The position numbers and the translations under genes were made by a program. A stretch of DNA of 64,000 bases from Desulfosudis oleivorans (GTDB lineage Bacteria; Desulfobacterota; Desulfobacteria; Desulfobacterales; SURF-7), in the NCBI GenBank assembly GCA_020723305.1, contig DYJC01000009.1, positions 62,001 through 126,000 of the forward strand. The letters are read 5' to 3'. The first letter of the stretch is position 1; the number at the start of each line of letters is the position of its first letter. The notes below the pieces were generated by a model, which made no database searches, was not told the origin of the DNA, and saw nothing but the letters and a program-made list of their open reading frames with translations. Shown in pieces: positions 11,633-42,329 of the stretch.

Positions 11633-11709
11633 TGGTGGCGATGCAGGGAATTGAACCCCGGACACTGCGGATATGAGCCGCATGCTCTGACCAACTGAGC
11701 TACATCGCC
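11633..11709 (-). tRNA. tRNA-Met (CAT), elongator type
   Basis: A complete 77-base cloverleaf reads on the minus strand. The acceptor stem is GGCGATG paired with CATCGCC, the D-arm is GCTC/GAGC, the anticodon stem is TGCGG/CCGCA around the loop CTCATAT (anticodon CAT), and the T-arm is CGGGG-TTCAATT-CCCTG. Discriminator A and CCA are encoded. The G1-C72 pair argues against an initiator tRNA. An isoleucine tRNA with lysidine-modified CAT is the other possibility, but the D-loop and stems look like elongator Met. Its 3' end faces the integrase and is the likely attachment site of the island. Confidence 0.95.
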
Positions 11710-29720: not shown

Positions 29721-31679
29721 ATGACAGGTGTAACCTTTCGAAAAAACAGAATGCGCATATTCCTTATTGTGTTATGCGGCATGATGTTGGGTATTCCAGG
29801 TGGAATTCTGATCGCGATCACCAGAGATCTGCCTGAAATCCGTTCTCTTGAATCATACAAACCCTCTTCTGTCACGCGTATCTATTCCGCAGACCATGTG
29901 CTTCTTTCCGAGCTGTTCCTGGAAAAAAGAGATCCGTTGCCGCTTCATCGTATTCCCAAACCCCTGATACAAGCCATCCTTTCCATTGAGGATAAATCTT
30001 TTTATCAGCATAGCGGAATTGATTTGAAAGGCATTATCCGCGCCATTTACAAAGATATACACGCACGAAAGCTTGTCGAAGGGGCCAGCACACTCACTCA
30101 GCAGTTGGCCAAAACCCTTTTTCTGACCAGCGAAAAGACCCTTGTTCGAAAACTGAAAGAAGCCATTCTCGCGTTCCAACTGGAAAGAAGATACACAAAA
30201 GACGAAATTCTGGAACTGTATCTGAATCAGATATATTTCGGCAGCGGTGCCTATGGTGTCAATGCAGCAGCCAAAACCTTTTTCAATAAACCGGTCGAAC
30301 ACCTTACCCTTGCGGAAGCAGCGCTGATTGCCGGTATGCCGCAATTACCGTCCCGCCTGTCACCTCTGGTCAGTCCCGAGCGTGCTGTCCAGCGAAGAAA
30401 TATCGTTCTGAAACAGATGTTTCGAAATAATATCATCTCGGAAAAGGAATTCAAACAATCCGAGAATGAACCGCTTCAGCTTGGAAAGAATGCGGATCAT
30501 CGTTTAATCGCCCCCTATTTCATCCAGTATGTAACGAATCAACTAGAGGACATCGTTGGCGCAACCCTCCTGTATCAAGGAGGGCTTATTGTAAACACCA
30601 CCCTGGATTATGCGCTTCAACAGTCTGCCGAAACTGTTGTTCGCAACCGGCTCCAGGAGTTAGAAACTCGAATGAAAAAGCATACAACCAAACCAGAGCC
30701 TCAGGCGGCGGTAATCTCTCTTTCTATCCAAACCGGTGGCATTCTGTCCATGGTAGGAGGAAAAGACTTTCCCCAGAGTAAATTTAACCGTGCCGTATCT
30801 GCCAAAAGACAACCTGGTTCAGCCTTTAAGCCGATTCTGTATGCCTGTGCAGTGGAGCAGGGATTTCCCCAGAACATGCTCTTACTGGATTCACCCGTTG
30901 TTTTTTCCGGTTCCGGGGGTTCTCCTCCCTGGGAACCGGAAAACTTCTCCAAGGACTACATGGGAGAAATCACATTACGGAAAGCCCTTGCCTTTTCTAA
31001 AAATATACCTGCGATCCGATTGATGGAAAAATTGGGTGTATCCTCTGTTTCAAGATTTGCCTCCTCCCTTGGAATTCAATCACGGCTCCATCCATACCTC
31101 TCCCTTGCGTTGGGCACGGCTGAAATGACACTTCTGGAACTCACGGCTGCCTATTCCGTATTCCCAAACCAGGGTAAACTGATCAAACCCTTTGCAATCG
31201 CCGAGATTCAGGATCGACATGGGAGAATAATCTGGCGTGCAAAACCCCAAAAATCAATTGCCATGTCCAGAGCCGGTGCAGCCATCATTACCGATATGCT
31301 GAATGGAGCCATTCTGGAGGGAACCGGCCAGAAAGCAAAATCGCTGCGGCAGCCTCTTGCCGGAAAAACAGGAACAACCAATCAATATAAAGATGCCCTG
31401 TTTATTGGATTTTCACCAGCGATCACAACCGGAGTCTGGGTTGGTCAGGATTCTTCTGAAACTCTTGGAAATGATGAAACCGGTGCAAAGGCAGCCTTGC
31501 CGATCTGGATGGATGTGATGCAAAAAGCCGAGTCAAAATCTTCAGGGCTCTCTTTTGATATACCGGATGAAACCGTAAGGGTGAGGATGGATCCAACCAG
31601 CGGAAACCCGGTACCTGAAACCGATCCTGATTCTGTGAATGCTTTGTTCAAAAAGGGAACCGAACCCAAAAAAAACTGA
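29721..31679 (+). CDS. Class A penicillin-binding protein (PBP1A-like)
   Basis: 652 residues. There is an N-terminal membrane anchor (IFLIVLCGMMLGIPGGILI) and a GT51 glycosyltransferase domain at about 50-230, with catalytic Glu in SIEDKSFYQHSGID near residue 88 and EGASTLTQQLAKTL. The transpeptidase domain has SxxK in GSAFKP near 366, SKN in FSKNIPAIR and KTGTTNQYKDA near 549. It polymerises and cross-links peptidoglycan in the periplasm. It is shorter than E. coli PBP1a (850), lacking the OB-like insert, as in many anaerobes. The C-terminus is a short Pro/Lys tail. Confidence 0.95.
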   Translation: MTGVTFRKNRMRIFLIVLCGMMLGIPGGILIAITRDLPEIRSLESYKPSSVTRIYSADHVLLSELFLEKRDPLPLHRIPKPLIQAILSIEDKSFYQHSGIDLKGIIRAIYKDIHARKLVEGASTLTQQLAKTLFLTSEKTLVRKLKEAILAFQLERRYTKDEILELYLNQIYFGSGAYGVNAAAKTFFNKPVEHLTLAEAALIAGMPQLPSRLSPLVSPERAVQRRNIVLKQMFRNNIISEKEFKQSENEPLQLGKNADHRLIAPYFIQYVTNQLEDIVGATLLYQGGLIVNTTLDYALQQSAETVVRNRLQELETRMKKHTTKPEPQAAVISLSIQTGGILSMVGGKDFPQSKFNRAVSAKRQPGSAFKPILYACAVEQGFPQNMLLLDSPVVFSGSGGSPPWEPENFSKDYMGEITLRKALAFSKNIPAIRLMEKLGVSSVSRFASSLGIQSRLHPYLSLALGTAEMTLLELTAAYSVFPNQGKLIKPFAIAEIQDRHGRIIWRAKPQKSIAMSRAGAAIITDMLNGAILEGTGQKAKSLRQPLAGKTGTTNQYKDALFIGFSPAITTGVWVGQDSSETLGNDETGAKAALPIWMDVMQKAESKSSGLSFDIPDETVRVRMDPTSGNPVPETDPDSVNALFKKGTEPKKN

Positions 31680-31744
31680 TCCCATTCTGATTAAGCCATA
31701 ATTTGCCGAAAATTTAAAATATAACCAATTTTTCCAAAAGCGAT

Positions 31745-31773
31745 TTGACACCCTCCGGCTTCTTCCCTATAGT
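31745..31773 (+). promoter_or_regulatory. Sigma70-type promoter of the TetR gene
   Basis: TTGACA at 31745-31750 and TATAGT at 31768-31773 are 17 bases apart. The TetR start codon is 78 bases downstream. No copy of the 22-base palindrome found after the TetR gene is seen here, so autoregulation is not supported by sequence. Confidence 0.7.
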
Positions 31774-31851
31774 CCATTACCTGACTGGGTTCACACTTCT
31801 CATATCGATTCACGATCCAGTATTGGGTAAAAACAATAAGGAAACAATTTC

Positions 31852-32475
31852 ATGTGCTGCATACGGAAAAAAAAGACGCAAGAAGAAAAAAGCCGGGAGA
31901 TGAAAATCCGGCTGATAGAAGCGACCCTGGTCTGCCTTCAGGAGCGCGGATACCATGGAACCTCTATTTCAGAAATCCTGAACCGGGCAGGAGTTTCGAG
32001 GGGTGCTTGGCGACATCATTACAACAACAAGAAAGAACTGGTTGCGGCAGCTGCTGAACACTTCTTAAAAGGCCCGATCGCAACTGCCCGGGAGATGGCC
32101 CCGAGTTTTAAAAATCGAGATAACCTGCTGGTTGAGGTTGTAAGCTATATCTGGGAAAATTATTACCAGGGAACATACCGCGACATCTGGCTTGAATTCA
32201 ATGTTGCCTGCCGGACCGATGAGGAGCTGAGGCAACGTCTGAAACCGGTAATCAAACATTTTTTTGAATCTCTGGATGAACTCTGGCGGGAACATTTTTC
32301 AGCGGCTGAGAATAGCTCCGGAACCATCGAAATCCTCATGAACCTGACACTGTATTCCATGCGGGGCATGGCGATCCAGTCCATTGTTCTGGATGAACCG
32401 GATTATTACCAAACCCTTCGAAATCAGTGGATTAAAATATTGTCACCGCTGGTCATGGTTCGAAAAGACACATGA
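31852..32475 (+). CDS. TetR/AcrR-family transcriptional regulator
   Basis: 207 residues. The N-terminal helix-turn-helix is typical: LIEATLVCLQERGYHGTSISEILNRAGVSRG, then WRHHYNNKKELVAAAAEHF. The C-terminal ligand-binding domain is helical and not specifically assignable. Lysine-rich residues 5-16 precede the DNA-binding domain. It stands directly upstream of, and on the same strand as, the dehydratase/glycyl-radical operon. The perfect palindrome at 32629-32650 in that operon's promoter is its probable operator. An acyl-CoA or aromatic pathway intermediate is a likely effector, by analogy with TetR regulators of CoA-thioester catabolism; that is inference. Confidence 0.92.
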   Translation: MCCIRKKKTQEEKSREMKIRLIEATLVCLQERGYHGTSISEILNRAGVSRGAWRHHYNNKKELVAAAAEHFLKGPIATAREMAPSFKNRDNLLVEVVSYIWENYYQGTYRDIWLEFNVACRTDEELRQRLKPVIKHFFESLDELWREHFSAAENSSGTIEILMNLTLYSMRGMAIQSIVLDEPDYYQTLRNQWIKILSPLVMVRKDT

Positions 32476-32595
32476 AACAGATCAACCTGCCTTTGTCATT
32501 TTTCTCCTCGTAAAGGCTTTGATCTCTTTGCTTTGACCTGAAAAACAAACAAGGTTTTATTTAGGAAACAGCCCTGGTTATTCCAAAACAAATGA

Positions 32596-32627
32596 TTGAC
32601 AAAAAAATAAAATTCTGACTTTAGTAT
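32596..32627 (+). promoter_or_regulatory. Possible promoter of the dehydratase/glycyl-radical operon
   Basis: TTGACA at 32596-32601 is followed by TTTAGT/TAGTAT at 32620-32627. The best-looking -10 hexamer is 18-20 bases away, longer than ideal, as is common for regulated promoters. The palindrome starts two bases later, so a bound repressor would cover the transcription start. Confidence 0.5.
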
Positions 32628-32628
32628 A

Positions 32629-32650
32629 AAACAAACCAATTGGTTTGTTT
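32629..32650. promoter_or_regulatory. Perfect 22-bp palindrome, probable TetR operator
   Basis: The 11-base half-site AAACAAACCAA is followed directly by its exact reverse complement. It lies between the TetR gene and the first dehydratase gene, just after the -10 region and about 50 bases before the start codon. Length and symmetry fit a TetR-dimer site. Confidence 0.75.
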
Positions 32651-32698
32651 CTTTAAAAAACAATACACCATACCCAAAAAACCCGAGGAGTATCGTAC

Positions 32699-33817
32699 AT
32701 GGAACGTATCGGCATTTTTAAACAAATTGTTTCAAACCCCTATGAATATGCCCGAAACTGGAAAGAGAAAACAGGGGGAAAGGTGATCGGAAATTTTTGT
32801 TCTTACACACCGGAAGAAGTGATTACAGCTGCAGGTGCCCTTCCGTTTCGAATTTTGGGCTCCGGAGCAACCATTTCCAAAGCAAATGCATTTTTACAGG
32901 CATATAGTTGCAGCCTTGTACGTGGCGCTTTGGAAGACTCCTTAGAAGGACGCCTGAATTTTCTGGATGGGACTGTTTTTCCGCATACCTGTGACTCCAT
33001 TCAGCGTTTGTCCGATATCTGGAGGATGAATACAAATTATGCATTTCATGCGGATCTGATCATGCCGGTTAAACTGGATACGGAGAGTGCCGAACAATAC
33101 ATGACTTCCGTTATCCGGAAATTCAGAAAAGACCTGGAAACCGGTTTTGGAATCCGGATTAACGATGAAATGCTCCAAAAAGCGATCCAGACATCCAACC
33201 AGGTTCGGGCTTCCCTTGCAAAACTATATGAAATCCGGAAAAATTCCCCGGAAAAAATAAAAAGCAGCGAACTCCACGCTGTTTTCAAGGCCTCCATGGT
33301 CATGGACCGGAACCAGCTTGCCGATGCTCTCAGAGAACTCATAACGTTTATAGAAAATCAGAAAGTTGCCAAAAAACCAGATTCAAAACGGATTGTCCTG
33401 ACCGGAGGATTGTGCAGCATGCCGGACATCTATGATGTCATCGAATCCTCCAATGGCGCCGTGGTTTGGGATGATTTCTGTACTGGATCAAGGTATTTTG
33501 AGGGCCGGATCATAGAAGAAGGTGATCTGGAAAAAAATATTGCCCAGCGGTATATCAATAGGATTGTCTGCCCGGCCAAACATTCCGGAATATATGCAAG
33601 AGGAAACTACCTCCTGGAAAAAATCAGGGAAAACCATGCAGATGGTGTTATCTTTGTATTTTTAAAATTCTGCGACCCTCATTCCTTTGATTACCCCTAC
33701 ATGAAAGAGATGCTTGAAAAAGAAGGCATTCCCAGCATGCTGTTTGAGATCGAAGAGCAAGCCTCTTCCGGAGGCCAGCTTCAAACCAGATGTGAAGCAT
33801 TTATGGAGATGCTGTAA
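32699..33817 (+). CDS. 2-hydroxyacyl-CoA dehydratase / benzoyl-CoA reductase-family subunit (HgdB/BcrC-like)
   Basis: 372 residues. The family shows as FCSYTPEEVITAAGALPFR, then a conserved Cys in QAYSCSLVRGAL and FPHTCDSIQRLSDIW. Cys34, Cys71 and Cys98 are candidate ligands of the [4Fe-4S] cluster. The second half has the repeated Rossmann-like core (RIVLTGGLCSMPDIYDVIE, YFEGRIIEEGD, ICPAKH-like segment) and ends in QASSGGQLQTRCEAFMEML, the usual C-terminal motif. Such enzymes use an ATP-driven one-electron transfer to dehydrate (R)-2-hydroxyacyl-CoA or reduce aromatic CoA esters. The partner subunit lies 141 bases downstream, and the activator follows. GAGGAG precedes the ATG. The substrate cannot be read from sequence. 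Confidence 0.88.
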   Translation: MERIGIFKQIVSNPYEYARNWKEKTGGKVIGNFCSYTPEEVITAAGALPFRILGSGATISKANAFLQAYSCSLVRGALEDSLEGRLNFLDGTVFPHTCDSIQRLSDIWRMNTNYAFHADLIMPVKLDTESAEQYMTSVIRKFRKDLETGFGIRINDEMLQKAIQTSNQVRASLAKLYEIRKNSPEKIKSSELHAVFKASMVMDRNQLADALRELITFIENQKVAKKPDSKRIVLTGGLCSMPDIYDVIESSNGAVVWDDFCTGSRYFEGRIIEEGDLEKNIAQRYINRIVCPAKHSGIYARGNYLLEKIRENHADGVIFVFLKFCDPHSFDYPYMKEMLEKEGIPSMLFEIEEQASSGGQLQTRCEAFMEML

Positions 33818-33819
33818 AT

Positions 33820-33934
33820 GGTTGGCCGGTTGGCCGGTTGGCCAGTTTACCGGTTTGCCGGTTTATTTACTAAAGGATTAGATAGTTTTTCGGGCTAACG
33901 GGCTAACCGGCTAACGGGACAACGGGCCAACCGG
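33820..33934. repeat. Intercistronic inverted repeat made of 8-base units
   Basis: The left arm repeats GGTTGGCC three times and decays into GTTTACCGGTTTGCCGG. The right arm, CGGGCTAACGGGCTAACC, continues to GGGCCAACCGG and is roughly its reverse complement. The block fills the gap between the two dehydratase subunit genes. It could fold in the mRNA and set the ratio of the subunits, or be a simple-sequence expansion. Confidence 0.65.
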
Positions 33935-33958
33935 AAAACCTATACGAGGAGAAAAACC

Positions 33959-35197
33959 ATGACATTGACGGAAAAAATAAAAGATCCGGAAAAAGAAAAA
34001 AGAAAAATCAAGTCTGATAAAAAAATGAGAGACCTCATGACAGCATATTATATTGAGGCAAAAACCCCTAAGGAGCAAACCGGAAAAAAAATTGCATGGA
34101 TCACCAGCGGCGGACCGGTAGAACCCCTGCAAGTGATGGATATCATACCTGTGTATCCGGAAAACTATGGTGCCATGATCGGCGCCAGCAAAATGGGGGT
34201 TGAGCTTTGTGAAAAAGCCGAACAGATGGGATACTCCAGCGACCTCTGTTCCTATGCACGGGCGGATATTGCCTGTGCAACTGTAAACGGAGGGCCCATC
34301 GGCGGATTACCGGAGCCGGACATGCTGATCTGCTGCAACAATATCTGCGGTACGGTTTTAAAATGGTACGAGGTGCAGGCCCGTTATTATAAAGTCCCTT
34401 TGTTCATTCTGGATACTCCCATCTGCCACACGGAATACAATCCGGATATGAAACGCTACGTGACCACACAGATTCAGGAATATATCGACTTTCTTGAAAA
34501 AATATGCGGCAAACGGTTTGATTACGACCGCATGACGGAAGTGGGAAAATTATCTATCCAGGGGCAAAGACTCTGGCAGGAGATCCTGGATACCACCATG
34601 AACCGTCCTGCGCCCATGACCTGTTTTGATGCATTTTTTCATCTCGCCATGATTGTTACCTTGCGCGGAACAAAGACCGCCGTAGATTTTTATGAATCCC
34701 TGCTGGCGGAAATGAAAGAGCGTATCGCCCAGGGGATTGGTATGCTTCCCCAGGAAAAATACCGTCTGGTCTGGGATAACCTGCCGGTCTGGTATCGATT
34801 GCGATGGCTGTCCAATAAGTTTGCTTCCCATTCCGCCTGTCTGGTGGCAGACACCTATACCTCCGGATGGTGCAGTTCCATGCAATACCTGGATGAGAAT
34901 GATTTTCTGGGATCTCTGGCGGAAATGTATACCCGGATTTTTCTGAACACCGGAACCGACATCATGGCAGACAACATTGTCAAAATGGTTGAAAAATATG
35001 AGGCTGACGGCGTGGTATTTCATTCCAACAGAAGCTGCAAACCCTATTCACTCGGGCAATATGACATTCAGAGAATCATCCAGGAAAAGATCGGCATCCC
35101 CACTCTGATGATTGAGGCTGACATGTCGGATGAACGGAATTTTTCCGAAAGCCAGATTGAAACGCGGATTGATGCGTTTATCGAAATGCTGAAGTAA
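33959..35197 (+). CDS. 2-hydroxyacyl-CoA dehydratase / benzoyl-CoA reductase-family subunit (HgdA/BcrB-like)
   Basis: 412 residues. Family blocks are WITSGGPVEPLQVMDIIPVY, PENYGAMIGA, MGYSSDLCSYARADIACA, LPEPDMLICCNNICGTVLKWYE and VPLFILDTPICH. Several cysteines here are candidate ligands for the [4Fe-4S] cluster. It ends in ESQIETRIDAFIEMLK, matching the partner's C-terminal motif. It forms the heterodimeric component with the preceding gene. GAGGAG lies before the ATG. Sequence segments recall BcrB, but the single HgdC-like activator in this operon argues for a dehydratase-type rather than a classical heterodimer-activated benzoyl-CoA reductase; that is inference. Confidence 0.88.
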   Translation: MTLTEKIKDPEKEKRKIKSDKKMRDLMTAYYIEAKTPKEQTGKKIAWITSGGPVEPLQVMDIIPVYPENYGAMIGASKMGVELCEKAEQMGYSSDLCSYARADIACATVNGGPIGGLPEPDMLICCNNICGTVLKWYEVQARYYKVPLFILDTPICHTEYNPDMKRYVTTQIQEYIDFLEKICGKRFDYDRMTEVGKLSIQGQRLWQEILDTTMNRPAPMTCFDAFFHLAMIVTLRGTKTAVDFYESLLAEMKERIAQGIGMLPQEKYRLVWDNLPVWYRLRWLSNKFASHSACLVADTYTSGWCSSMQYLDENDFLGSLAEMYTRIFLNTGTDIMADNIVKMVEKYEADGVVFHSNRSCKPYSLGQYDIQRIIQEKIGIPTLMIEADMSDERNFSESQIETRIDAFIEMLK

Positions 35198-35224
35198 ACC
35201 GAACACCACCGATTTTTGATTTCA

Positions 35225-35294
35225 TGTGGGAGGCTTCCAGCCGCGAAATTGGATCGTTCAAAGCACAGATATCGCGGCAGGAACCGCTCCCACA
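35225..35294. repeat. REP-like inverted pair (REPIN-type hairpin)
   Basis: TGTGGGAGGCTTCCAGCCGC begins the left arm. The right arm, ending in GCTCCCACA, is an imperfect reverse complement (TCGCGGCAGGAACC inside). The arms are 21-23 bases, separated by about 26 bases. The sequence is close to the widespread GTGGGAGCGGCTT-type REP. It lies in the 160-base gap between the second dehydratase subunit and the activator gene. No RAYT transposase is in the window. Confidence 0.7.
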
Positions 35295-35357
35295 AAAAGT
35301 TCAAGATGATATTGTTCAAAACCTGATAATTGTACTACTAAATAGAAAGAGGTTTTT

Positions 35358-36125
35358 ATGATAACAGCAGGTATCGATGTCGGCTCCATCAGCGCCAAAG
35401 CCGCTATAATAAAAGACAATGAACTATTGGGTGCATGTGTTATCCTGACCGGATACAACTCCCGGAATGCAGGCCGGCAGGTTTTTGATCAGATCCTGTT
35501 GGAAGTGAACCTTGATGCTTCCCAGATTGACAAAATCATTGCCACCGGATATGGCAGAAACAGCATTGAATTCGCCGACAAAGCAGTCACCGAAATCACC
35601 TGTCATGCTGCCGGTGCCAATTTTTTAAATCCGGAAATCCGCTCCATTATCGATATCGGAGGACAGGACAGTAAGGCCATTGTGATTAATGAAAAAGGAA
35701 AGGTTCAGGATTTTTCCATGAATGACAAGTGTGCTGCCGGAACCGGAAGATTTCTGGAAGTCATGGCTCGCGCCCTGGAAGTGGATCTGGACGCATTCGG
35801 TGAATTATCGCTTCAGGCAGATAACGTCGCTTCGATCAGCAGCCTGTGTACGGTCTTTGCGGAATCCGAAGTTATTTCCCTGATTGCAAAGGGAGAAAAA
35901 CGGGAAAATATCATTGCTGGGATTCATGCATCCATTGGCTCCAGGGTAATGGCCATGGGAAAACGGATCGGTATCACTTCGCCGGTCATGATGACCGGAG
36001 GGGTTGCCAAAAATATCGGGGTAGTCAAAGCACTGGAAGAAAAATTCAATACACCGATCATTGTATCCGCACATGCACAGGTAAACGGTGCCATTGGAGC
36101 GGCATTGATTGCATCCACCCTATAA
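35358..36125 (+). CDS. ATP-dependent activator of 2-hydroxyacyl-CoA dehydratase (HgdC-like)
   Basis: 255 residues, BadF/BadG/BcrA/BcrD ATPase family, acetate-kinase/actin fold. It shows AGIDVGSISAKAAIIKDNE (phosphate 1), IIDIGGQDSKAIVI (phosphate 2), NDKCAAGTGRFLEVMA and SSLCTVFAESEVISL, whose two cysteines ligate one [4Fe-4S] cluster bridging a homodimer, and MTGGVAKNIGVVKALE near the end. It hydrolyses ATP to push a low-potential electron into the dehydratase. As a single 255-residue protein it resembles HgdC rather than the two-subunit BcrAD pair. It follows the REP-like hairpin. Confidence 0.93.
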   Translation: MITAGIDVGSISAKAAIIKDNELLGACVILTGYNSRNAGRQVFDQILLEVNLDASQIDKIIATGYGRNSIEFADKAVTEITCHAAGANFLNPEIRSIIDIGGQDSKAIVINEKGKVQDFSMNDKCAAGTGRFLEVMARALEVDLDAFGELSLQADNVASISSLCTVFAESEVISLIAKGEKRENIIAGIHASIGSRVMAMGKRIGITSPVMMTGGVAKNIGVVKALEEKFNTPIIVSAHAQVNGAIGAALIASTL

Positions 36126-36151
36126 CAGAATACAAACCAAGGAGAACAAGC

Positions 36152-36916
36152 ATGAGCAATCTGTCCTACCAACTGGATGATAAAGTCTTTCTGGTAACCG
36201 GCGGCAGCCGGGGAATCGGTCTTGAAATTGCGGGACTCCTTCTTGCGCAGAATGCAAAAGTGGTTATCTGCGGCCGCAAACAGGAAGGACTCGATGCAGC
36301 AAAGGAAAAATTACAGGCTGGAAAAAACCGATTTCTTGCTGTTCCAACACACATCGGCAAAGATGAAGATGTCGACAACCTGCTGAAACAGACGATCTCT
36401 TCTTTTGGACGGCTCGACGGGCTGATCAATAATGTCGGCATGAATATCGTCACTTCTCTGGTGGATGCAGACCCATCTCTATGGCAGAAAATTATCGATT
36501 CAAACCTTACCGGAACCTTCCGCTGCTCACAAAAGGCCGGAAAAATCATGAGAGAAAACAAGACCGGAAAAATTGTCAGCATCACCTCCATCGCTGCCAG
36601 ACGTTCTGCACCGGCCATGGGAATCTATGGAATCGCCAAGGCCGGAATTGAAATGATGACTAAGGTTCTGGCTATGGAGCTGGCCCCATTCAACGTCCAG
36701 GTAAATGCAGTAGCCCCGTGTATGGTGAAAACCGATTTCAGCAAATTCTTCTGGTCCAATGATGATATCCGAAAAGAGATTGTGAAAACCATACCCCTCG
36801 GAAGAATACCGGAGCCAATTGATATTGCTCATCCGACCCTGTTTTTATGTTCTCCGGGAGCAGATTTTATCACCGGCCAAACCATCATGGTTGACGGGGG
36901 GGCATCCGCGGTTTAA
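36152..36916 (+). CDS. SDR-family NAD(P)-dependent dehydrogenase
   Basis: 254 residues from the ATG at 36152, chosen because AAGGAGAAC lies just before it; the open frame runs much further upstream inside the activator gene and is not coding there. The classical SDR pattern is complete: TGGSRGIGLEIAG for the cofactor, NNVG, catalytic Ser in VSITSIAARR, YGIAKAG for YxxxK, and a C-terminal ITGQTIMVDGGASAV. It oxidises an alcohol or reduces a ketone of small or CoA-bound substrates. It is placed 26 bases after the activator gene and before the glycyl radical enzyme, so it probably handles an intermediate between them. The substrate is unknown. Confidence 0.93.
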   Translation: MSNLSYQLDDKVFLVTGGSRGIGLEIAGLLLAQNAKVVICGRKQEGLDAAKEKLQAGKNRFLAVPTHIGKDEDVDNLLKQTISSFGRLDGLINNVGMNIVTSLVDADPSLWQKIIDSNLTGTFRCSQKAGKIMRENKTGKIVSITSIAARRSAPAMGIYGIAKAGIEMMTKVLAMELAPFNVQVNAVAPCMVKTDFSKFFWSNDDIRKEIVKTIPLGRIPEPIDIAHPTLFLCSPGADFITGQTIMVDGGASAV

Positions 36917-37001
36917 TCCATTGTGCTCAACCGGATCTCTTTGTCTGCCTGAAACGGGTTTTAGGCCGTAAACCAAAAAAAACCATGCAAGGAGGCAATC
37001 C

Positions 37002-39473
37002 ATGAATGCCTATTCAAACCAAACACCGGCAGCCCGCATCAAAGAAGAACATTTACCGGAAACCGAACCGGCATTCCGAAAACCCAACGACCGGATTGCC
37101 GCCATCAAGGCAGCCCTGTTTGCTTCACCCTACTCCCTCTGCCTGGAAAGGCCCCGGTTGCTGCTGCGCTTTCAAAGAAGCAGATCCGGCAGACTCAGTA
37201 AAAAAGAGCATCCCCTGGTGAAACGGGCAAAAGCTCTGGCCTACGTGATGTCGGAAAGACAACCCCGGATCTATGACAGAGAAAGGATCATCGGCAACAT
37301 GACCTCCAAACGAACCGCTGCCAACTACTACCCGGAAGGCGGCTCCATCAATATTCTGGAGGACCTGTTCCGGCTGGAAAAACGCCATGTTCCCATCCAG
37401 TTGACTGCAAAGGAAAAATTGGAACTGGTTCAGATCGGTTTATCCGGACTTTTTTCCAGCATCGGAGGCAAAGCTCTGCTCAAGCCTGGTCGATTCATGC
37501 ACTTTCTGGATTTCTTCCGGGCCAAGCGATATTTCATTACCGAAGAAGCTGGTATAGGACATCAGGTTGGTGGCTATTATAACGTGGTACATTATGGCCT
37601 TCAGCAGCCTGATGAGATTGCCAAAACCTGCCTGGAAAAAGGCACTCTGCCGGACGGAACAAAACTGGAAAGGGATCAGATTGCATTTTATCAATCCATT
37701 CGAATCACGATCCAGGGAATCCGACGCATGGCCGCCAATCTGGCGGATCTGGCTGAAAAACTGGCGTATCACCCCGGGGTCTCTGACAAACGCCGTCAGG
37801 AACTTCTGACATCAGCCGATGCATGCCGTCAAGTTCCCTATTATCCTGCCCGGAACTTTCTCGAAGGGTTGCAGTCCTGCTGGATTGTCCATGTGGCCAT
37901 GAACCTGGAAGACTTTGAGCAGGGAATGTCTTTTGGCCGTCTGGATCGTATCCTGCTTCCGCTTTTCCGCAGGGATCTGGAACAGGGAACCATTACCCGT
38001 GAAACTGCAACGGAAATCATGGCCTCGTTCCAGTTGAAAACCTGCGAAACCCTTCCGGTGTACTCGGAACGGATTGATCAGTACTTCAGCGGCAACGGTG
38101 TTGCCCAGGGAATCACCATCGGCGGCACAGATGAAAACGGAGAGGATACAACCAATGAGCTTTCCGGCATCGTTCTGGATGCATATGCCCAGATCTGCAC
38201 AAGAGAGCCGGCCCTGCATGTCCGGGTGCATGAAAACACTCCCCGCTGGTTTCTGGATAATGCAGTTGCAACAGTTCAACTCGGATGCGGAAAACCCTCT
38301 TTTTTTGGGGATAACGCTGTAGTCGCCTCATTGGAACAGGCAGGAATATCGAAAGAGCATGCCCGTGACTATGCTGTCATCGGATGTGTGGAAATGGCGA
38401 GTCAGGGAAGGACATACAACTCCAGTGATGCTGCCCTGTTCAATCTGCCCCTGTGTCTGGAATTGGCCCTGAATCAAGGCTACTGCTATGGCCAGCGCCA
38501 TTTTGGACGCCGAATGGGCGCTCCGACCAAACCGGTAGAACAGATGCATTCCTTTAATGATGTAGTGGATGCATTCCGCAGCCAGGTGGAACATGCTGTG
38601 GCGGAAATGGTAAAAGTCATCGGATGGCTGGAAGCAACCTACCGCATCTGGAGGCCAACACCGGTGAACTCCATGGTTACGGAAGGCTGTCTTGATAAAG
38701 GAAAAGACGTTACCTGGGGCGGCGCTTTATATGATCTGACATCGATCCAGGTTGCAGGCCTGGCAGATGCAGGGGATTCCCTGTATGCCGTCCAACAGCT
38801 CATTTTCCACCAGAAGCGGTACACCCTGAAAGAGCTGCTGAACATTCTGAAAACCGATTATCAGCATCACCGCGGATTACAGCAGGAGCTCTTGCATCAG
38901 TTCCCCAGATACGGCAATGGAATAGCCGATGTTGACCAGATGACCCAACTGGCGGCAGATGTGTTTTCCAATGCGATTACAGCGCACCGCAATTCAAGGG
39001 GCGGACGCTATATACCGGGCATCTATTCCATGACCTGCCATATTGCGTTTGGCCGACTTACCGGCGCCCTGCCCAATGGCCGGGGTTCCGGGCAAAGGAT
39101 GTCCAACGGACTCTCCCCTGCGGATGGAGCAGACCGGAAAGGACCTACGGCTGTTCTGCGTTCCGCCGCTTCCCTGGACAGCCGGAAGTGGTCCAACTGC
39201 TGTGCATTGAATCTGAAATTCGATCGCAAGTCTGTTGCCGGCAAAGCCGGCCGAAGCGCGCTTGCCAACCTGTTTACGACCTATTTTGACCAGGGCGGCA
39301 TGCAGGTTCAGGCCAATGTGCTGGATGCGGAAATGCTGCGGGCAGCCAAGCAAAATCCAGCCGAATATCCGGGAATCGTCGTGCGTGTGGCCGGCTACTG
39401 CGCTTATTTCAATGATCTCCAGCCTTCTGTCCAGGATGAAATCATTGAAAGAACGGTTCATGGTATTGGATAA
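37002..39473 (+). CDS. Glycyl radical enzyme (pyruvate formate-lyase/diol dehydratase family)
   Basis: 823 residues, usual for the family. The glycyl radical loop is RVAGYCAYFNDL with Gly798. The thiyl-radical site is IGCVEMASQGRTYNSSDAAL, with Cys462 and Glu464. The GCVE form occurs in eliminating and decarboxylating members (glycerol or diol dehydratases, choline TMA-lyase, arylacetate decarboxylases) and not in the alkyl/benzylsuccinate synthases, so a dehydratase, lyase or decarboxylase is likely. GCVE was read directly; its meaning is family knowledge. The activase starts two bases after the stop. AAGGAGGC is a strong ribosome binding site. The substrate is not assignable, but the operon suggests an intermediate linked to 2-hydroxyacyl-CoA or aromatic metabolism. 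Strictly anaerobic enzyme. Confidence 0.92.
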   Translation: MNAYSNQTPAARIKEEHLPETEPAFRKPNDRIAAIKAALFASPYSLCLERPRLLLRFQRSRSGRLSKKEHPLVKRAKALAYVMSERQPRIYDRERIIGNMTSKRTAANYYPEGGSINILEDLFRLEKRHVPIQLTAKEKLELVQIGLSGLFSSIGGKALLKPGRFMHFLDFFRAKRYFITEEAGIGHQVGGYYNVVHYGLQQPDEIAKTCLEKGTLPDGTKLERDQIAFYQSIRITIQGIRRMAANLADLAEKLAYHPGVSDKRRQELLTSADACRQVPYYPARNFLEGLQSCWIVHVAMNLEDFEQGMSFGRLDRILLPLFRRDLEQGTITRETATEIMASFQLKTCETLPVYSERIDQYFSGNGVAQGITIGGTDENGEDTTNELSGIVLDAYAQICTREPALHVRVHENTPRWFLDNAVATVQLGCGKPSFFGDNAVVASLEQAGISKEHARDYAVIGCVEMASQGRTYNSSDAALFNLPLCLELALNQGYCYGQRHFGRRMGAPTKPVEQMHSFNDVVDAFRSQVEHAVAEMVKVIGWLEATYRIWRPTPVNSMVTEGCLDKGKDVTWGGALYDLTSIQVAGLADAGDSLYAVQQLIFHQKRYTLKELLNILKTDYQHHRGLQQELLHQFPRYGNGIADVDQMTQLAADVFSNAITAHRNSRGGRYIPGIYSMTCHIAFGRLTGALPNGRGSGQRMSNGLSPADGADRKGPTAVLRSAASLDSRKWSNCCALNLKFDRKSVAGKAGRSALANLFTTYFDQGGMQVQANVLDAEMLRAAKQNPAEYPGIVVRVAGYCAYFNDLQPSVQDEIIERTVHGIG

Positions 39474-39474
39474 T

Positions 39475-40461
39475 ATGAAAAAACCTTTGGCCGGACAGAT
39501 CTTTTCCATTCAGCATTTTTGTCTTCACGACGGCCCTGGCATTCGAAGCCTTGTTTTTTTCAAGGGCTGCCCCCTGCGATGCACCTGGTGTCAGAATCCG
39601 GAATCCTGGTCACCGGCCTCGGAACTCGGTTTTAAAGACCATCTGTGTATCAACTGCCGGAACTGTCTATCAATCTGCCCGGTCAATGCCATGAAAACCC
39701 CCGGCCAGATCCGATCTGATCTGTGTCAAACATGCTTTTCATGCGCAAAAGCATGTCCATCCGGGGCTTTGATACGCTTTGGGAACTGTCTTTCAACCCA
39801 TACCGTATTGAAAGATCTTCAACCTGAATATCCTTACTATCGCAGCTCTGGTGGAGGTGTTACCTTTTCCGGCGGAGAACCCACCTTGTCTCTTGAATTT
39901 GTAATACAACTGGCCGCGGCTTTGAAACAGGATCAAATACATGTGGCCATGGAAACCTGCGGCCTGTTTCATATGGAGGAAAAATCGGAGTCTTTGCCTG
40001 AATCCGGAAAGGCTATCCGTGAACTGCTGAGTCTGATCGATCTCATACTGTTTGACATCAAGTTGTTCCAGGAAGCCGCCCATCAACAATTCTGTGGTAC
40101 ATCAAACCGGATAATCAAAAACAACCTTGCGATGCTGGCCCGAAATTTTTTTCAAGAAGGTGGTCCGATGATATGGCCCCGCATGCCGCTGATACCCGGT
40201 ATTACCGATACACCTGAAAATCTGGAAGGCTGGGGAGATCTGCTTGCCGAACTTGAACTGAACAAGGTAACCCTGGTTCCCTTTCACAACCTCGGGGAAG
40301 CCAAAAGAGAATGGCTCCAGCTCAAACCTGGTCCGAAACTGAATACGCCGACCCCGGAATCCATAGAAAAGGCCCGACATGTTCTGGCCAGAATGGGGAT
40401 CACCTGCTATGATCCGGGAGAAGAAGAGTGGCCCCCGGCATCCAAATCATCCCCGGTCTGA
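39475..40461 (+). CDS. Glycyl-radical enzyme activating protein (radical SAM)
   Basis: 328 residues from the ATG at 39475; an in-frame ATG at 39460 would overlap the upstream gene. The radical SAM motif is GCPLRCTWCQNPE (CxxxCxxC). Between it and the core are two ferredoxin-like cluster motifs, CINCRNCLSICP and CQTCFSCAKACP, as in activases of diol dehydratase- and decarboxylase-type glycyl radical enzymes; the plain PFL activase lacks them. GGGVTFSGGEPTL is the SAM-binding segment. It installs the radical on Gly798 of the preceding enzyme. The upstream, much longer open frame is out-of-frame reading of the enzyme gene. Confidence 0.93.
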   Translation: MKKPLAGQIFSIQHFCLHDGPGIRSLVFFKGCPLRCTWCQNPESWSPASELGFKDHLCINCRNCLSICPVNAMKTPGQIRSDLCQTCFSCAKACPSGALIRFGNCLSTHTVLKDLQPEYPYYRSSGGGVTFSGGEPTLSLEFVIQLAAALKQDQIHVAMETCGLFHMEEKSESLPESGKAIRELLSLIDLILFDIKLFQEAAHQQFCGTSNRIIKNNLAMLARNFFQEGGPMIWPRMPLIPGITDTPENLEGWGDLLAELELNKVTLVPFHNLGEAKREWLQLKPGPKLNTPTPESIEKARHVLARMGITCYDPGEEEWPPASKSSPV

Positions 40462-40595
40462 ACGGATAGACAATTCTTTTCAACAGCCTTATTTTTCATC
40501 CGGATGGTTGATCTGTTTGACAGGTTACCTATATTTGGAATATTCATAAATAAAAAATAAGCCCTTTTCAAAAAACAGGATGAACAAAAACAGAT

Positions 40596-42020
40596 ATGCC
40601 CTCATCAGACCAGCCTGAGTATAATCCCAACATCATCGGTTTTACCGAAGAAAAGGGCCCTGTCATGATTTCCCTGAAAAAAGCCAAGACCCGGTATGGA
40701 AAACTGCCAAGCGACTATCAACTGGTTTCCGTGAAAGACAGCAGAAAGAGCAAGAAAGTGCTGAACCTTGCTCTGGGAAAACGGATTACCGAAGAATTGA
40801 AAACAGGAGATGTCAATTTTAAAAAACCGGTTTTCCAGTTTTTTGAAAACTGGCACCGGAATTGGGAAGAGGAGTTTGGCATACAGATGTCTCCTTTTTT
40901 CAATTTGAACAACCCGGAACGGATTCGTCAGATTATCACAGAATGCAGGAACAGCTTATTCCCGGTTTCCAGTCACCGCCTCAGAACCGACCTTGATTCC
41001 ACCGGCCTTCTTCGAAAAGATATCCTCAACTCCATTCCGGATTCGAAGTTACTCCAATCGGTTGAAAAAATTTTGAAGAATAAGCAAAACAATCTTTCTA
41101 ACAAAAAAAAACAACAGGATATCCAGCTTGCATTGGCCCGGATTCGAATCCATCGTATCCTCACAAAAATCAAAAACACCATCTCCTGTGATCTGGCCGA
41201 ATCTGATCAACAGACCTCCGCCATTTATGCAGACGAGATTGCCAGTGCCCTTTTTGAGCTCTCACCGGATCTGTCCATTCCGGAAATCGAAAAACTTTCC
41301 GTTCCCCAAAAAAAAGGTGTTGAGTTTGAATTTGCCACAAGGGATATCACCTACCTGATGCTGGGCAAGGAAACCGGAGATTGTACTGCGGATAAAACCC
41401 CGTTTCAGGCAGATCGGAATATCGAAAATATCTATTGGACGGTTTTTCCCTGGATTCTGGACCGGAACTATCAGATACTGAAAGTATTTCATGATGGACA
41501 GTTTGTTATGAAGGTCCACCTGCTGCCCTTGTATGTGTTTCATGAAAACATGGATAAAATCATTCTGGCCATCGATGCAATTGAAACCATCAGAGCTTTC
41601 CGGGATGATTTTCAGGAATGCAGCCGGAAGGAGTTGCTGGAAAACAGAAAGGAAATCTTTCATCAGGTTTTACAAAAAATTATCCATATCGGAAAAGCGA
41701 TGGGAATTGATGATATTTATGCAGAAAAGTTCTCCAATACCGGATGGGTCCGGGATCTTTTGAATGACCTGCCTGAAATTTTCCTGCATGTAAACAACCT
41801 GATCAAACTGGATGAGCTGGAAGATGTCTTTTGTCTGGCGCAGAAACTTTGTAAAAAGGACAGGATAGCGCCGCCCACAGAAATATTCATGGAAATCCAG
41901 ATGAAGAACACCTCTCTGATACCCAGTGTTTCGAAAAAAAATAATGCTGTAAAATCTTTTGCGGTCATAAAAGGACGTTCGGATGATGGTATTCCCATGA
42001 AAAAAATTATCGGAATTTAA
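40596..42020 (+). CDS. Protein of unknown function
   Basis: 474 residues, not recognised. There is no signal peptide or membrane segment. A central block stands out as probably conserved: YLMLGKETGDCTADKTPFQ and then ENIYWTVFPWILDRNYQIL, around residues 250-300, with a following strand-like FVMKVHLLPLYVF. The rest is helical and lysine-rich. The start at 40596 lacks a clear ribosome binding site; an ATG at about 40668 (MISLKKAKTRYGK) is an alternative. It lies 134 bases after the activase gene and 12 bases before a small gene on the same strand, so it heads the next transcription unit, which continues into glycosyltransferase and radical SAM genes. Confidence 0.7.
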   Translation: MPSSDQPEYNPNIIGFTEEKGPVMISLKKAKTRYGKLPSDYQLVSVKDSRKSKKVLNLALGKRITEELKTGDVNFKKPVFQFFENWHRNWEEEFGIQMSPFFNLNNPERIRQIITECRNSLFPVSSHRLRTDLDSTGLLRKDILNSIPDSKLLQSVEKILKNKQNNLSNKKKQQDIQLALARIRIHRILTKIKNTISCDLAESDQQTSAIYADEIASALFELSPDLSIPEIEKLSVPQKKGVEFEFATRDITYLMLGKETGDCTADKTPFQADRNIENIYWTVFPWILDRNYQILKVFHDGQFVMKVHLLPLYVFHENMDKIILAIDAIETIRAFRDDFQECSRKELLENRKEIFHQVLQKIIHIGKAMGIDDIYAEKFSNTGWVRDLLNDLPEIFLHVNNLIKLDELEDVFCLAQKLCKKDRIAPPTEIFMEIQMKNTSLIPSVSKKNNAVKSFAVIKGRSDDGIPMKKIIGI

Positions 42021-42032
42021 GGAGGATTGATT

Positions 42033-42329
42033 ATGCTTGATGTAGATGGAAAAGATATTCTGACCCGGGTGACAAAATACAACCTGATCCGGTCAGACAG
42101 AATGCTGCACATTGATGTGCATGAGGCGATTTTCGGAAAACTGGCAGGAAAATTCGTAGCGGTTCCCAATCTGATCAACATCATTGCCAAGCAGGAATAT
42201 CAGGGAACCGGCGACACGGAAAAAGAGGCTTTGGAAAACTGCCTGTCCAAAGTCAAAGGTGTTGAACTGGAAAAACTTTTTCCGGAAAGGCCCAATCCAA
42301 AGCAGACCCAAAAACCGGATAATGCATAA
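42033..42329 (+). CDS. Small conserved hypothetical protein
   Basis: 98 residues from the ATG at 42033. GGAGG at 42021-42025 is seven bases before it, so the in-frame TTG at 42027 is rejected as start. The sequence looks folded and soluble (DVDGKDILTRVTKYNLIRS, then a Glu/Lys-rich helix and a Pro/Lys/Gln tail). No family is recognised. It lies 12 bases after the unknown 474-residue gene and three bases before the glycosyltransferase gene, so all three are in one operon. Confidence 0.75.
   Translation: MLDVDGKDILTRVTKYNLIRSDRMLHIDVHEAIFGKLAGKFVAVPNLINIIAKQEYQGTGDTEKEALENCLSKVKGVELEKLFPERPNPKQTQKPDNA

Follow-up and report, generated by a model that had tools for sequence, protein, structure and literature searches.

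A predicted TetR-controlled operon of Desulfosudis in which a candidate ATP-driven radical CoA-ester reductase is joined by a glycyl radical enzyme

What might two different radical enzymes have to do with each other when their genes stand in one row behind one regulator? The question is raised by a locus of Desulfosudis oleivorans (GCA_020723305.1, contig DYJC01000009.1), analysed here within a window of 64,000 nucleotides (contig positions 62,001-126,000; coordinates below are those of the window). Genes were taken from a listing of open reading frames (ORFs), domains were assigned with Pfam, equivalog membership was judged by NCBIfam cut-offs and solved structures were searched in the PDB. 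Six genes lie in the same direction on the + strand, 3' of a gene for a TetR-family regulator: those for the beta and alpha subunits of a BCR/HAD-family enzyme, its activator and a short-chain dehydrogenase/reductase (SDR), together called module 1 or the block, and those for a glycyl radical enzyme (GRE) and its activase (module 2). The original prediction had named these six genes and their common direction, both of which are borne out by ORF calls, Pfam and NCBIfam. We read the locus as a TetR-controlled operon that would encode an ATP-driven radical CoA-ester reductase of the BCR/HAD family, joined in one genus of Desulfobacteraceae-like anaerobes by a GRE that is likely a dehydratase, and we give this reading a probability of about 0.48. 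The core of the operon is a new variant within the BCR/HAD family, and we found no description of the gene set in the accessible parts of the open-licence literature searched.

Both subunits are HGD-D proteins above the Pfam cut-offs and are accompanied by a BcrAD_BadFG-type ATPase, also above its cut-off, which places the enzyme in the BCR/HAD radical family. The beta subunit (32699..33817, + strand, 372 aa) matches HGD-D with 294.5 bits, the HadB-like alpha subunit (33959..35197, +, 412 aa), predicted to be the catalytic one, matches PF06050 with 284.7 bits, and the HgdC/HadI-type ATP-dependent activator (35358..36125, +, 255 aa) reaches 283.9 bits against TIGR00241 (cut-off 125.4) and 231.7 bits against BcrAD_BadFG. 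The SDR (36152..36916, +; adh_short_C2, 210.2 bits) is counted as 254 aa from the homologous start within a longer ORF (35846-36916). The activator and the activase exceed the cut-offs of general NCBIfam models (TIGR00241 and TIGR02494, respectively) and the SDR that of a single broad subfamily model; both HGD-D subunits and the GRE miss the equivalog cut-offs.

Alignment shows that the beta subunit holds the six cysteines common to BzdN and the double-cubane cluster protein (DCCP), namely C34, C71, C98, C261, C291 and C325, as well as R51, R265, R288 and H328, the equivalents of Arg53, Arg267, Arg290 and His330 of BzdN. Six cysteines bind the double-cubane cluster of BzdN according to PMC11971306, from which the residue roles for BzdN and BzdO, including those of BzdO Ser44 and Glu65, are also taken; which six these are is our reading of the alignments. 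The ligand set is kept in 42-43 of 43 rows, with the exception of R288 (38/43), and the beta subunit is predicted to be an [8Fe-9S] double-cubane carrier. Hence, of the HgdAB/BcrBC-type subunits proposed originally, the family assignment stands, while the beta subunit, with its BzdN-type ligands, is not a plain dehydratase subunit. In the alpha subunit, C97, C130, C360, S50 and E68, which correspond to the three cluster cysteines, the Ser and the Glu of HadB and BzdO, are invariant in 45/45 rows, suggesting a [4Fe-4S]-OH2 site. S50 and E68 are the equivalents of S37 and E55 of HadB, which we take to be its active-site Ser and Glu, so that the pair found beside the [4Fe-4S]-OH2 cluster in HadBC is present here. 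The alpha subunit has 3763 relatives (90% clusters, E <= 1e-100); given this number and the ligand set kept in the 43 beta rows examined, anaerobes may hold many further double-cubane enzymes that can be tested as a group.

The second radical enzyme, the GRE (37002..39473, +, 823 aa), begins 85 bases 3' of the SDR gene and is a predicted 1,2-eliminase. It possesses PFL-like (493.3 bits) and Gly_radical (95.1 bits) domains, the radical Gly, the catalytic Cys and a radical SAM activase (39460..40461, +, 333 aa from the called start; TIGR02494, 269.1 bits vs a cut-off of 174.35), the ORF of which overlaps it by 14 bases. C462 and G798 are invariant in 28 sequences, and the catalytic-Cys loop, GCVEMASQGRTYNSSDAALFNL, is nearly invariant in the clade; its GCVE type, noticed earlier, is confirmed by alignment. 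C462, E464, D476 and H187, invariant in the 28-row alignment, are the equivalents of C433, E435, D447 and H164 of glycerol dehydratase, presumably its catalytic residues, and alignment to 1r8w puts R176, Q307 and G308 in place of N156, H281 and S282, which we take to be its substrate residues (the pairing of N156 with R176 is uncertain, as it adjoins a 3-residue insertion). The enzyme seems to belong to an eliminase-like group and is likely a dehydratase or 1,2-eliminase. In IslA and HypD an Arg stands on strand beta1, and in IslA it binds the anionic substrate, as given in PMC8473560; R176 might correspond to that Arg, and an anionic diol as the substrate of the GRE is only a guess.

Against the NCBIfam models for PflD-type enzymes, HpfG, HpsG, HypD, CutC, IAD and HPAD the GRE scores 278-446 bits (cut-offs 1000-1150), and its best solved relative reaches 456 bits vs 1899 for the GRE against itself, so the models and solved structures searched place it in no characterised isofunctional cluster. 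Elimination or decarboxylation had been proposed for it: the catalytic residues of glycerol dehydratase argue for the former, while the models for the latter stay far under their cut-offs. That the GRE is a decarboxylase of the arylacetate type or a fumarate-adding enzyme is very improbable in spite of the shared GCVE-type active-site loop, since the indoleacetate and hydroxyphenylacetate decarboxylase models give 334 of 1100 and 278 of 1150 bits, the benzylsuccinate/methylalkylsuccinate synthase chains reach 182-290 bits vs 376-456 for the best five, and no further small gene lies between GRE and activase; both functions were rejected on their low scores. Relatives of the GRE occur in records named Desulfobacteraceae, Thermodesulfobacteriota, Chloroflexi, Bacillota, Actinomycetes, Myxococcales, Spirochaetes and others (62-95% identity among the 120 of 385 listed), whereas plasmid carriage of the GRE was rejected: the 15 plasmid records at E <= 1e-100 reach at best 34.9% identity. 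As a clue to the substrate the neighbours were uninformative: every family other than the activase is confined to 6 or fewer of the 42 clustered loci (three of 45 were dropped, their GRE having been missed by the ORF caller). Three further observations concern this enzyme. In 28/28 aligned clade members the residue after the radical Gly-Tyr is Cys (GYC; 39393-39401, residues 798-800), where five solved GREs compared have Ser. The GRE of genome G004 (L022/L058) has an in-frame TGA or a frame change near residue 746-782, reflecting decay or an assembly error. The genome of D. oleivorans itself is rich in radical enzymes, its 5.4 Mb containing 15 HGD-D and 7 GRE matches; three of its six other GREs (L003, L005, L006), translated from the wrong strand, were left out of the comparison.

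What appears to tie these genes together is a palindrome. The TetR-family regulator (31852..32475, +, 207 aa; PF00440, 47.4 bits vs a cut-off of 24) reaches no NCBIfam cut-off; copies 88-92% identical to it stand 5' of the block in three further genomes of the genus (G001, G002, G003; D. oleivorans itself is G000). A perfect palindrome of 22 bp, AAACAAACCAATTGGTTTGTTT (32629..32650, no strand), identical in 4/4 genus genomes, is the predicted TetR operator, in agreement with the single operator expected earlier, and we infer that the regulator encoded at 31852..32475 binds it. Its 20-base core, AACAAACCAATTGGTTTGTT (32630-32649), has one match in the window at up to 3 mismatches (mean of 0.01 in 100 shuffles). 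When eight genomes were searched for the core at up to 2 mismatches, with a reversed-pattern control that gave 0 matches in all eight, it was found exact 5' of the block in G000, G001, G002, G003 and G007, the last of which, from the same family but outside the genus, has no GRE there. No site at up to 2 mismatches occurs in G004 or in G011 (also of the family outside the genus, like G006), and the one site of G006 (2 mismatches, C12), which by eye precedes an SBF-like gene, may be due to chance.

The sole further site in G000 (C4) and G001 (C80) has 1 mismatch and lies about 60-70 bases before a gene for an AMP-dependent acyl-CoA ligase, which lends substance to the CoA-bound chemistry of the original prediction. 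In G006 a repeat-like site other than the palindrome, AGACYGTTCGGTWTGTTT, stands in front of the block and again in front of the ligase orthologue. Allowing up to 1 mismatch, a scan of 7.2 Mb gave no third copy, and G000 and G007 have none; since the pattern was written from its two sites, only the absence of others is informative. The ligase is of the FATP type (best solved relative FATP2, 143 bits), and its best NCBIfam model, steroid-CoA synthetase, is far under cut-off (264.6 of 900). Its orthologues occur in 4/59 relatives (G000, G001, G006, G007), each of which carries the block as well as a GRE of the clade, a co-occurrence with a chance of 8e-5 over 59 genomes and 0.03 within the family when relatedness is ignored. 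Moreover, a 44-codon remnant before the block of G007 (L151 7413-7547) matches the beginning of another kind of acyl-CoA ligase (28 residues, 64%), a type that in L157 immediately precedes the HGD-D pair and in L121 lies 31 bases beyond the alpha subunit. Hence, three separate observations on ligases tie acyl-CoA formation to the block. The closeness of the ligase to FATP2 and the steroid-CoA synthetase model, together with SBF-family transporters in or near the block (L151, L155, L157; Pfam was run on the L155 gene only), prompted the idea of a steroid or bile-acid substrate, which is too weak to claim.

Several observations weigh against our reading, some of them touching the reductase and others its union with the GRE. 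As to the former, four of the seven HGD-D proteins of the own genome that were checked (L009, L011, L012, L015; the alpha subunit of the operon is among the seven) also keep the six cysteines, so the set is not operon-specific, is by itself no proof of a reductase and was dropped as a marker of this operon. The alpha subunit is nearer to HadB (3o3m_A, 255.9 bits, its best PDB match) than to MbdO (163.5) or BzdO (148.4), and it lacks equivalents of the ring and thioester residues Trp46, His131 and Gln274 of BzdO: Gly52 and Val133 occupy the first two positions in 45/45 rows, and position 275, which aligns with Gln274 depending on the pairwise alignment, is Leu in 34/45 and Ile in 11/45. Six loci of another family (L114, L118, L120, L122, L123, L124) have the order beta-alpha-SDR-activator, and neighbours there include racemase- and CoA-transferase-type genes, fitting a 2-hydroxyacyl-CoA dehydratase.

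The main rival to a reductase is a redox-neutral (R)-2-hydroxyacyl-CoA dehydratase of the HAD type, with catalytic ATP, a recycled electron and an SDR acting on the 2-hydroxy acid. Besides the HadB-like alpha subunit, it draws on the single HgdC-type activator above the TIGR00241 cut-off, on the lactate-racemase-type (L114, L122, L123, L124) and CoA-transferase-type genes (L114, L120, L122, L123; Pfam was run on the L123 pair only) beside HadC-HadB-SDR-HadI in the other family, and on the FAD_binding_4 and CCG-domain genes of L127, as in D-2-hydroxyacid oxidation. We nevertheless consider it rather unlikely, as the beta subunit holds the full [8Fe-9S] ligand set, including, as judged from sequence only, the two cysteines missing in HadC, the HadB and HadC NCBIfam cut-offs are missed (303.1 of 750 and 246.3 of 700 bits), and the operon has no CoA-transferase. 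Another alternative, a module 1 that acts on a benzoyl-CoA analogue in the manner of a class I benzoyl-CoA reductase, shares the BzdN-type ligands and is improbable given the absence of the BzdO ring-pocket residues, scores far under the cut-offs for bzdN (207.8 of 453.8 bits) and bzdO (152.4 of 448.6), and an operon with a single activator gene where BzdNO has a pair.

The other observations concern the union of the two modules. The full gene order is found in G000 and G001; in G003 it is complete up to a contig end inside the GRE, and in G002 the row is split, each half ending on a contig of its own. Identities within the genus are 83-97% (activase, 61%). Only this genus has the two modules side by side (2/45 GRE loci): no such block is seen in the other 43, where 33 of all 45 loci hold at least 4 kb upstream of the GRE. 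The block, in turn, has the order beta-alpha-activator-SDR without a GRE in the stretches fetched from G007, G011 and G006, where its SDR is 74-84% identical; L151, L152 and L153 show this complete block with no adjoining GRE. Relatives of the HadB-like subunit at 64% identity or more occur in 25/395 genomes of the phylum (the own genome and one partial match counted). Conservation of gene order, on which the original prediction depended, thus holds in the genus and fails outside it, and module 1 is old and independent of the GRE. Elsewhere the block stands near AMP-dependent ligases, a 3-hydroxyacyl-CoA dehydrogenase, a thiolase, FAD_binding_4 and CCG proteins and SBF transporters (10 selected proteins were assigned with Pfam, all others by BLAST clusters or by eye), which fit acyl-CoA or hydroxy-acid metabolism; the majority of the remaining neighbours are unrelated and not shared between loci.

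The GREs of G006 and G007 lie elsewhere in the genome, with no such site upstream. In the phylum sample, GRE and block coincide in 3/6 GRE genomes (own genome excluded) vs 0.37 expected (P 0.0035), and in the sample of relatives, with the genus excluded, in 3/8 vs 1.9 expected (P 0.28). The second palindrome of G000 and G001 need not serve the ligase, because on its opposite side a small divergent gene starts, and TTGACA-like boxes near the palindrome were seen by eye only, with none in the computed site listing for the region. The GRE and its activase may instead be mere neighbours of the block, a self-contained pair of genes that arrived within or next to it and serves a separate pathway; they do form such a pair in many loci (activase directly 3' in 31 of 45, divergent in 2 and not adjoining in 12, six of which end at or inside the GRE), and the L151 block is followed by the orthologue of a 474-aa gene that in D. 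oleivorans stands 3' of the activase. This is a possible explanation, to which we give only about one chance in three, as the GRE lies on the same strand after a gap of 85 bases, behind one palindrome and in an order kept in the genus, as the ligase orthologue occurs only where block and GRE coincide, and as an Acidimicrobium metagenome-assembled genome (L076 6757-12424) has an acyl-CoA ligase, a HadB-like gene and a GRE orthologue of the same clade (63%) in a row, with no adjoining activase. The L076 ligase is 31% identical to that of G000, and together with the HadB-like gene it resembles the own-genome locus L140 more closely than the operon described here. By eye, the row is preceded by an acyl-CoA-dehydrogenase-like gene and followed by enoyl-CoA-hydratase- and SDR-like genes. 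Either insertion of the GRE into the block or dispersal of an older cluster would account for the distribution.

Since both radical enzymes, which are predicted to be oxygen-sensitive, follow one repressor-type site whose only other copy in G000 and G001 precedes a CoA ligase, they likely serve one pathway for one acid; a single linear pathway, with modules joined only in this genus, is no more than plausible. The cofactors, reactions, substrate and order of steps that we infer would be the following. The FATP-type ligase, encoded elsewhere, would make the CoA ester; the HgdC-type ATPase would pass single electrons to the [8Fe-9S] cluster of the beta subunit; the [4Fe-4S]-OH2 cluster of the alpha subunit would reduce, or reductively dehydroxylate, the acyl group; the SDR would set or remove a neighbouring hydroxyl or oxo group; and the GRE, once activated, could remove water from a polar vicinal diol feeding or draining the same substrate class. 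In its strict form, in which a double-cubane CoA-ester reductase with a HadB-like site, the GRE eliminase and the ligase work in series on one acid under one TetR switch, this scheme is still doubtful, at odds of perhaps one in four. If true, two different radical generators would be wired to one acid substrate, and only one genus would have recruited the GRE. The ligase, with a site of the same kind before it, offers a handle on the substrate and makes the two-radical hypothesis testable.

The gaps and flanks of the operon deserve a brief account. The 141 bases between the subunit genes and the 160 bases between alpha subunit and activator are mostly occupied by repeats, and hence co-transcription of the six genes appears likely. 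The first gap contains tandem repeats of the GGTTGGCC type (33820..33940, no strand) in variable number, forming an inverted repeat that may fold into an mRNA hairpin; their length varies among G000, G002 and G003, and they are absent in G001. The second holds a REP-like (repetitive extragenic palindromic) inverted element (35226..35293, no strand), which G000 and G002 have and G003 lacks; G001 shows a different sequence there. Terminator-like sites within 31600-42200 are at chance level (15 vs 12.0 +/- 3.5 in shuffles), and an Rfam scan of the window gave only a tRNA (11636-11709). The 474-aa protein 3' of the activase (40596..42020, +), of no known family, has no match in Pfam or NCBIfam; orthologues are found in L164 (G002, 93%), L151 (G007, 61%) and L037 (52%), that of G007 directly 3' of the block SDR and that of G006 about 3 kb from the activase. 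In G001 (L163 16995-19404) its place after the activase is taken by a second GRE (34% identity) and, by eye, SDR-like and epimerase-like genes. In four loci, L131-L134, an aldehyde-ferredoxin-oxidoreductase-type gene (Pfam on L132 only) comes after a HadC-HadB pair whose alpha subunit is 56-60% identical, and upstream of the window in the own genome a 1078-aa ORF (L140 8717-11953) fuses an acyl-CoA ligase with a HadB-like subunit, its halves matching separate adjoining L076 genes (54% and 64%).

Compared with known systems, the two modules resemble several and coincide with none. The GRE shares the catalytic Cys, Glu, Asp, His and Gly positions with glycerol dehydratase (1r8w) and propanediol dehydratase (5i2a) but differs from them in Arg176, Gln307 and Gly308 and in its score (phmmer, 409 vs 1899 for self). 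Its nearest solved relative, Archaeoglobus PFL2 (2f3o, 456 bits), for which we know of no assigned function, has the Cys loop GCVE-x-A-xx-G-xx-(Y/F)-x-SSDAAL, yet lies outside the clade of close relatives and has Val at the R176 position in the alignment. Module 1 resembles BzdNO, the class I benzoyl-CoA reductase (8s02; PMC11971306), in being an HGD-D heterodimer, in the six cysteines and four charged [8Fe-9S]-site residues of the beta subunit, and in the three [4Fe-4S]-OH2-site cysteines and the equivalents of BzdO Ser44, Glu65, Tyr97 and Tyr298 of the alpha subunit, but has one HgdC-type activator gene in the operon where BzdNO has the BzdPQ pair (a second one elsewhere in the genome was not sought). 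With DCCP (6eno, 7yyl) it shares the six-Cys set; DCCP, however, is a homodimer of one gene product rather than of two different subunits, and the NCBIfam double_cubane cut-off is missed (210 and 99 of 350 bits). To HadBC, the (R)-2-hydroxyisocaproyl-CoA dehydratase (3o3m), it is linked by the alpha subunit, nearest by sequence and with CCNNIC and NRSCK motifs, and by the one activator, whereas it departs from HadBC in having no HadA-type CoA-transferase in the operon, in SGGP (45/45 rows; preceded by T in 44) where HadB has TSVFP, and in a beta subunit that, unlike HadC, keeps C34 and C261 and the three of four charged residues that HadC lacks.

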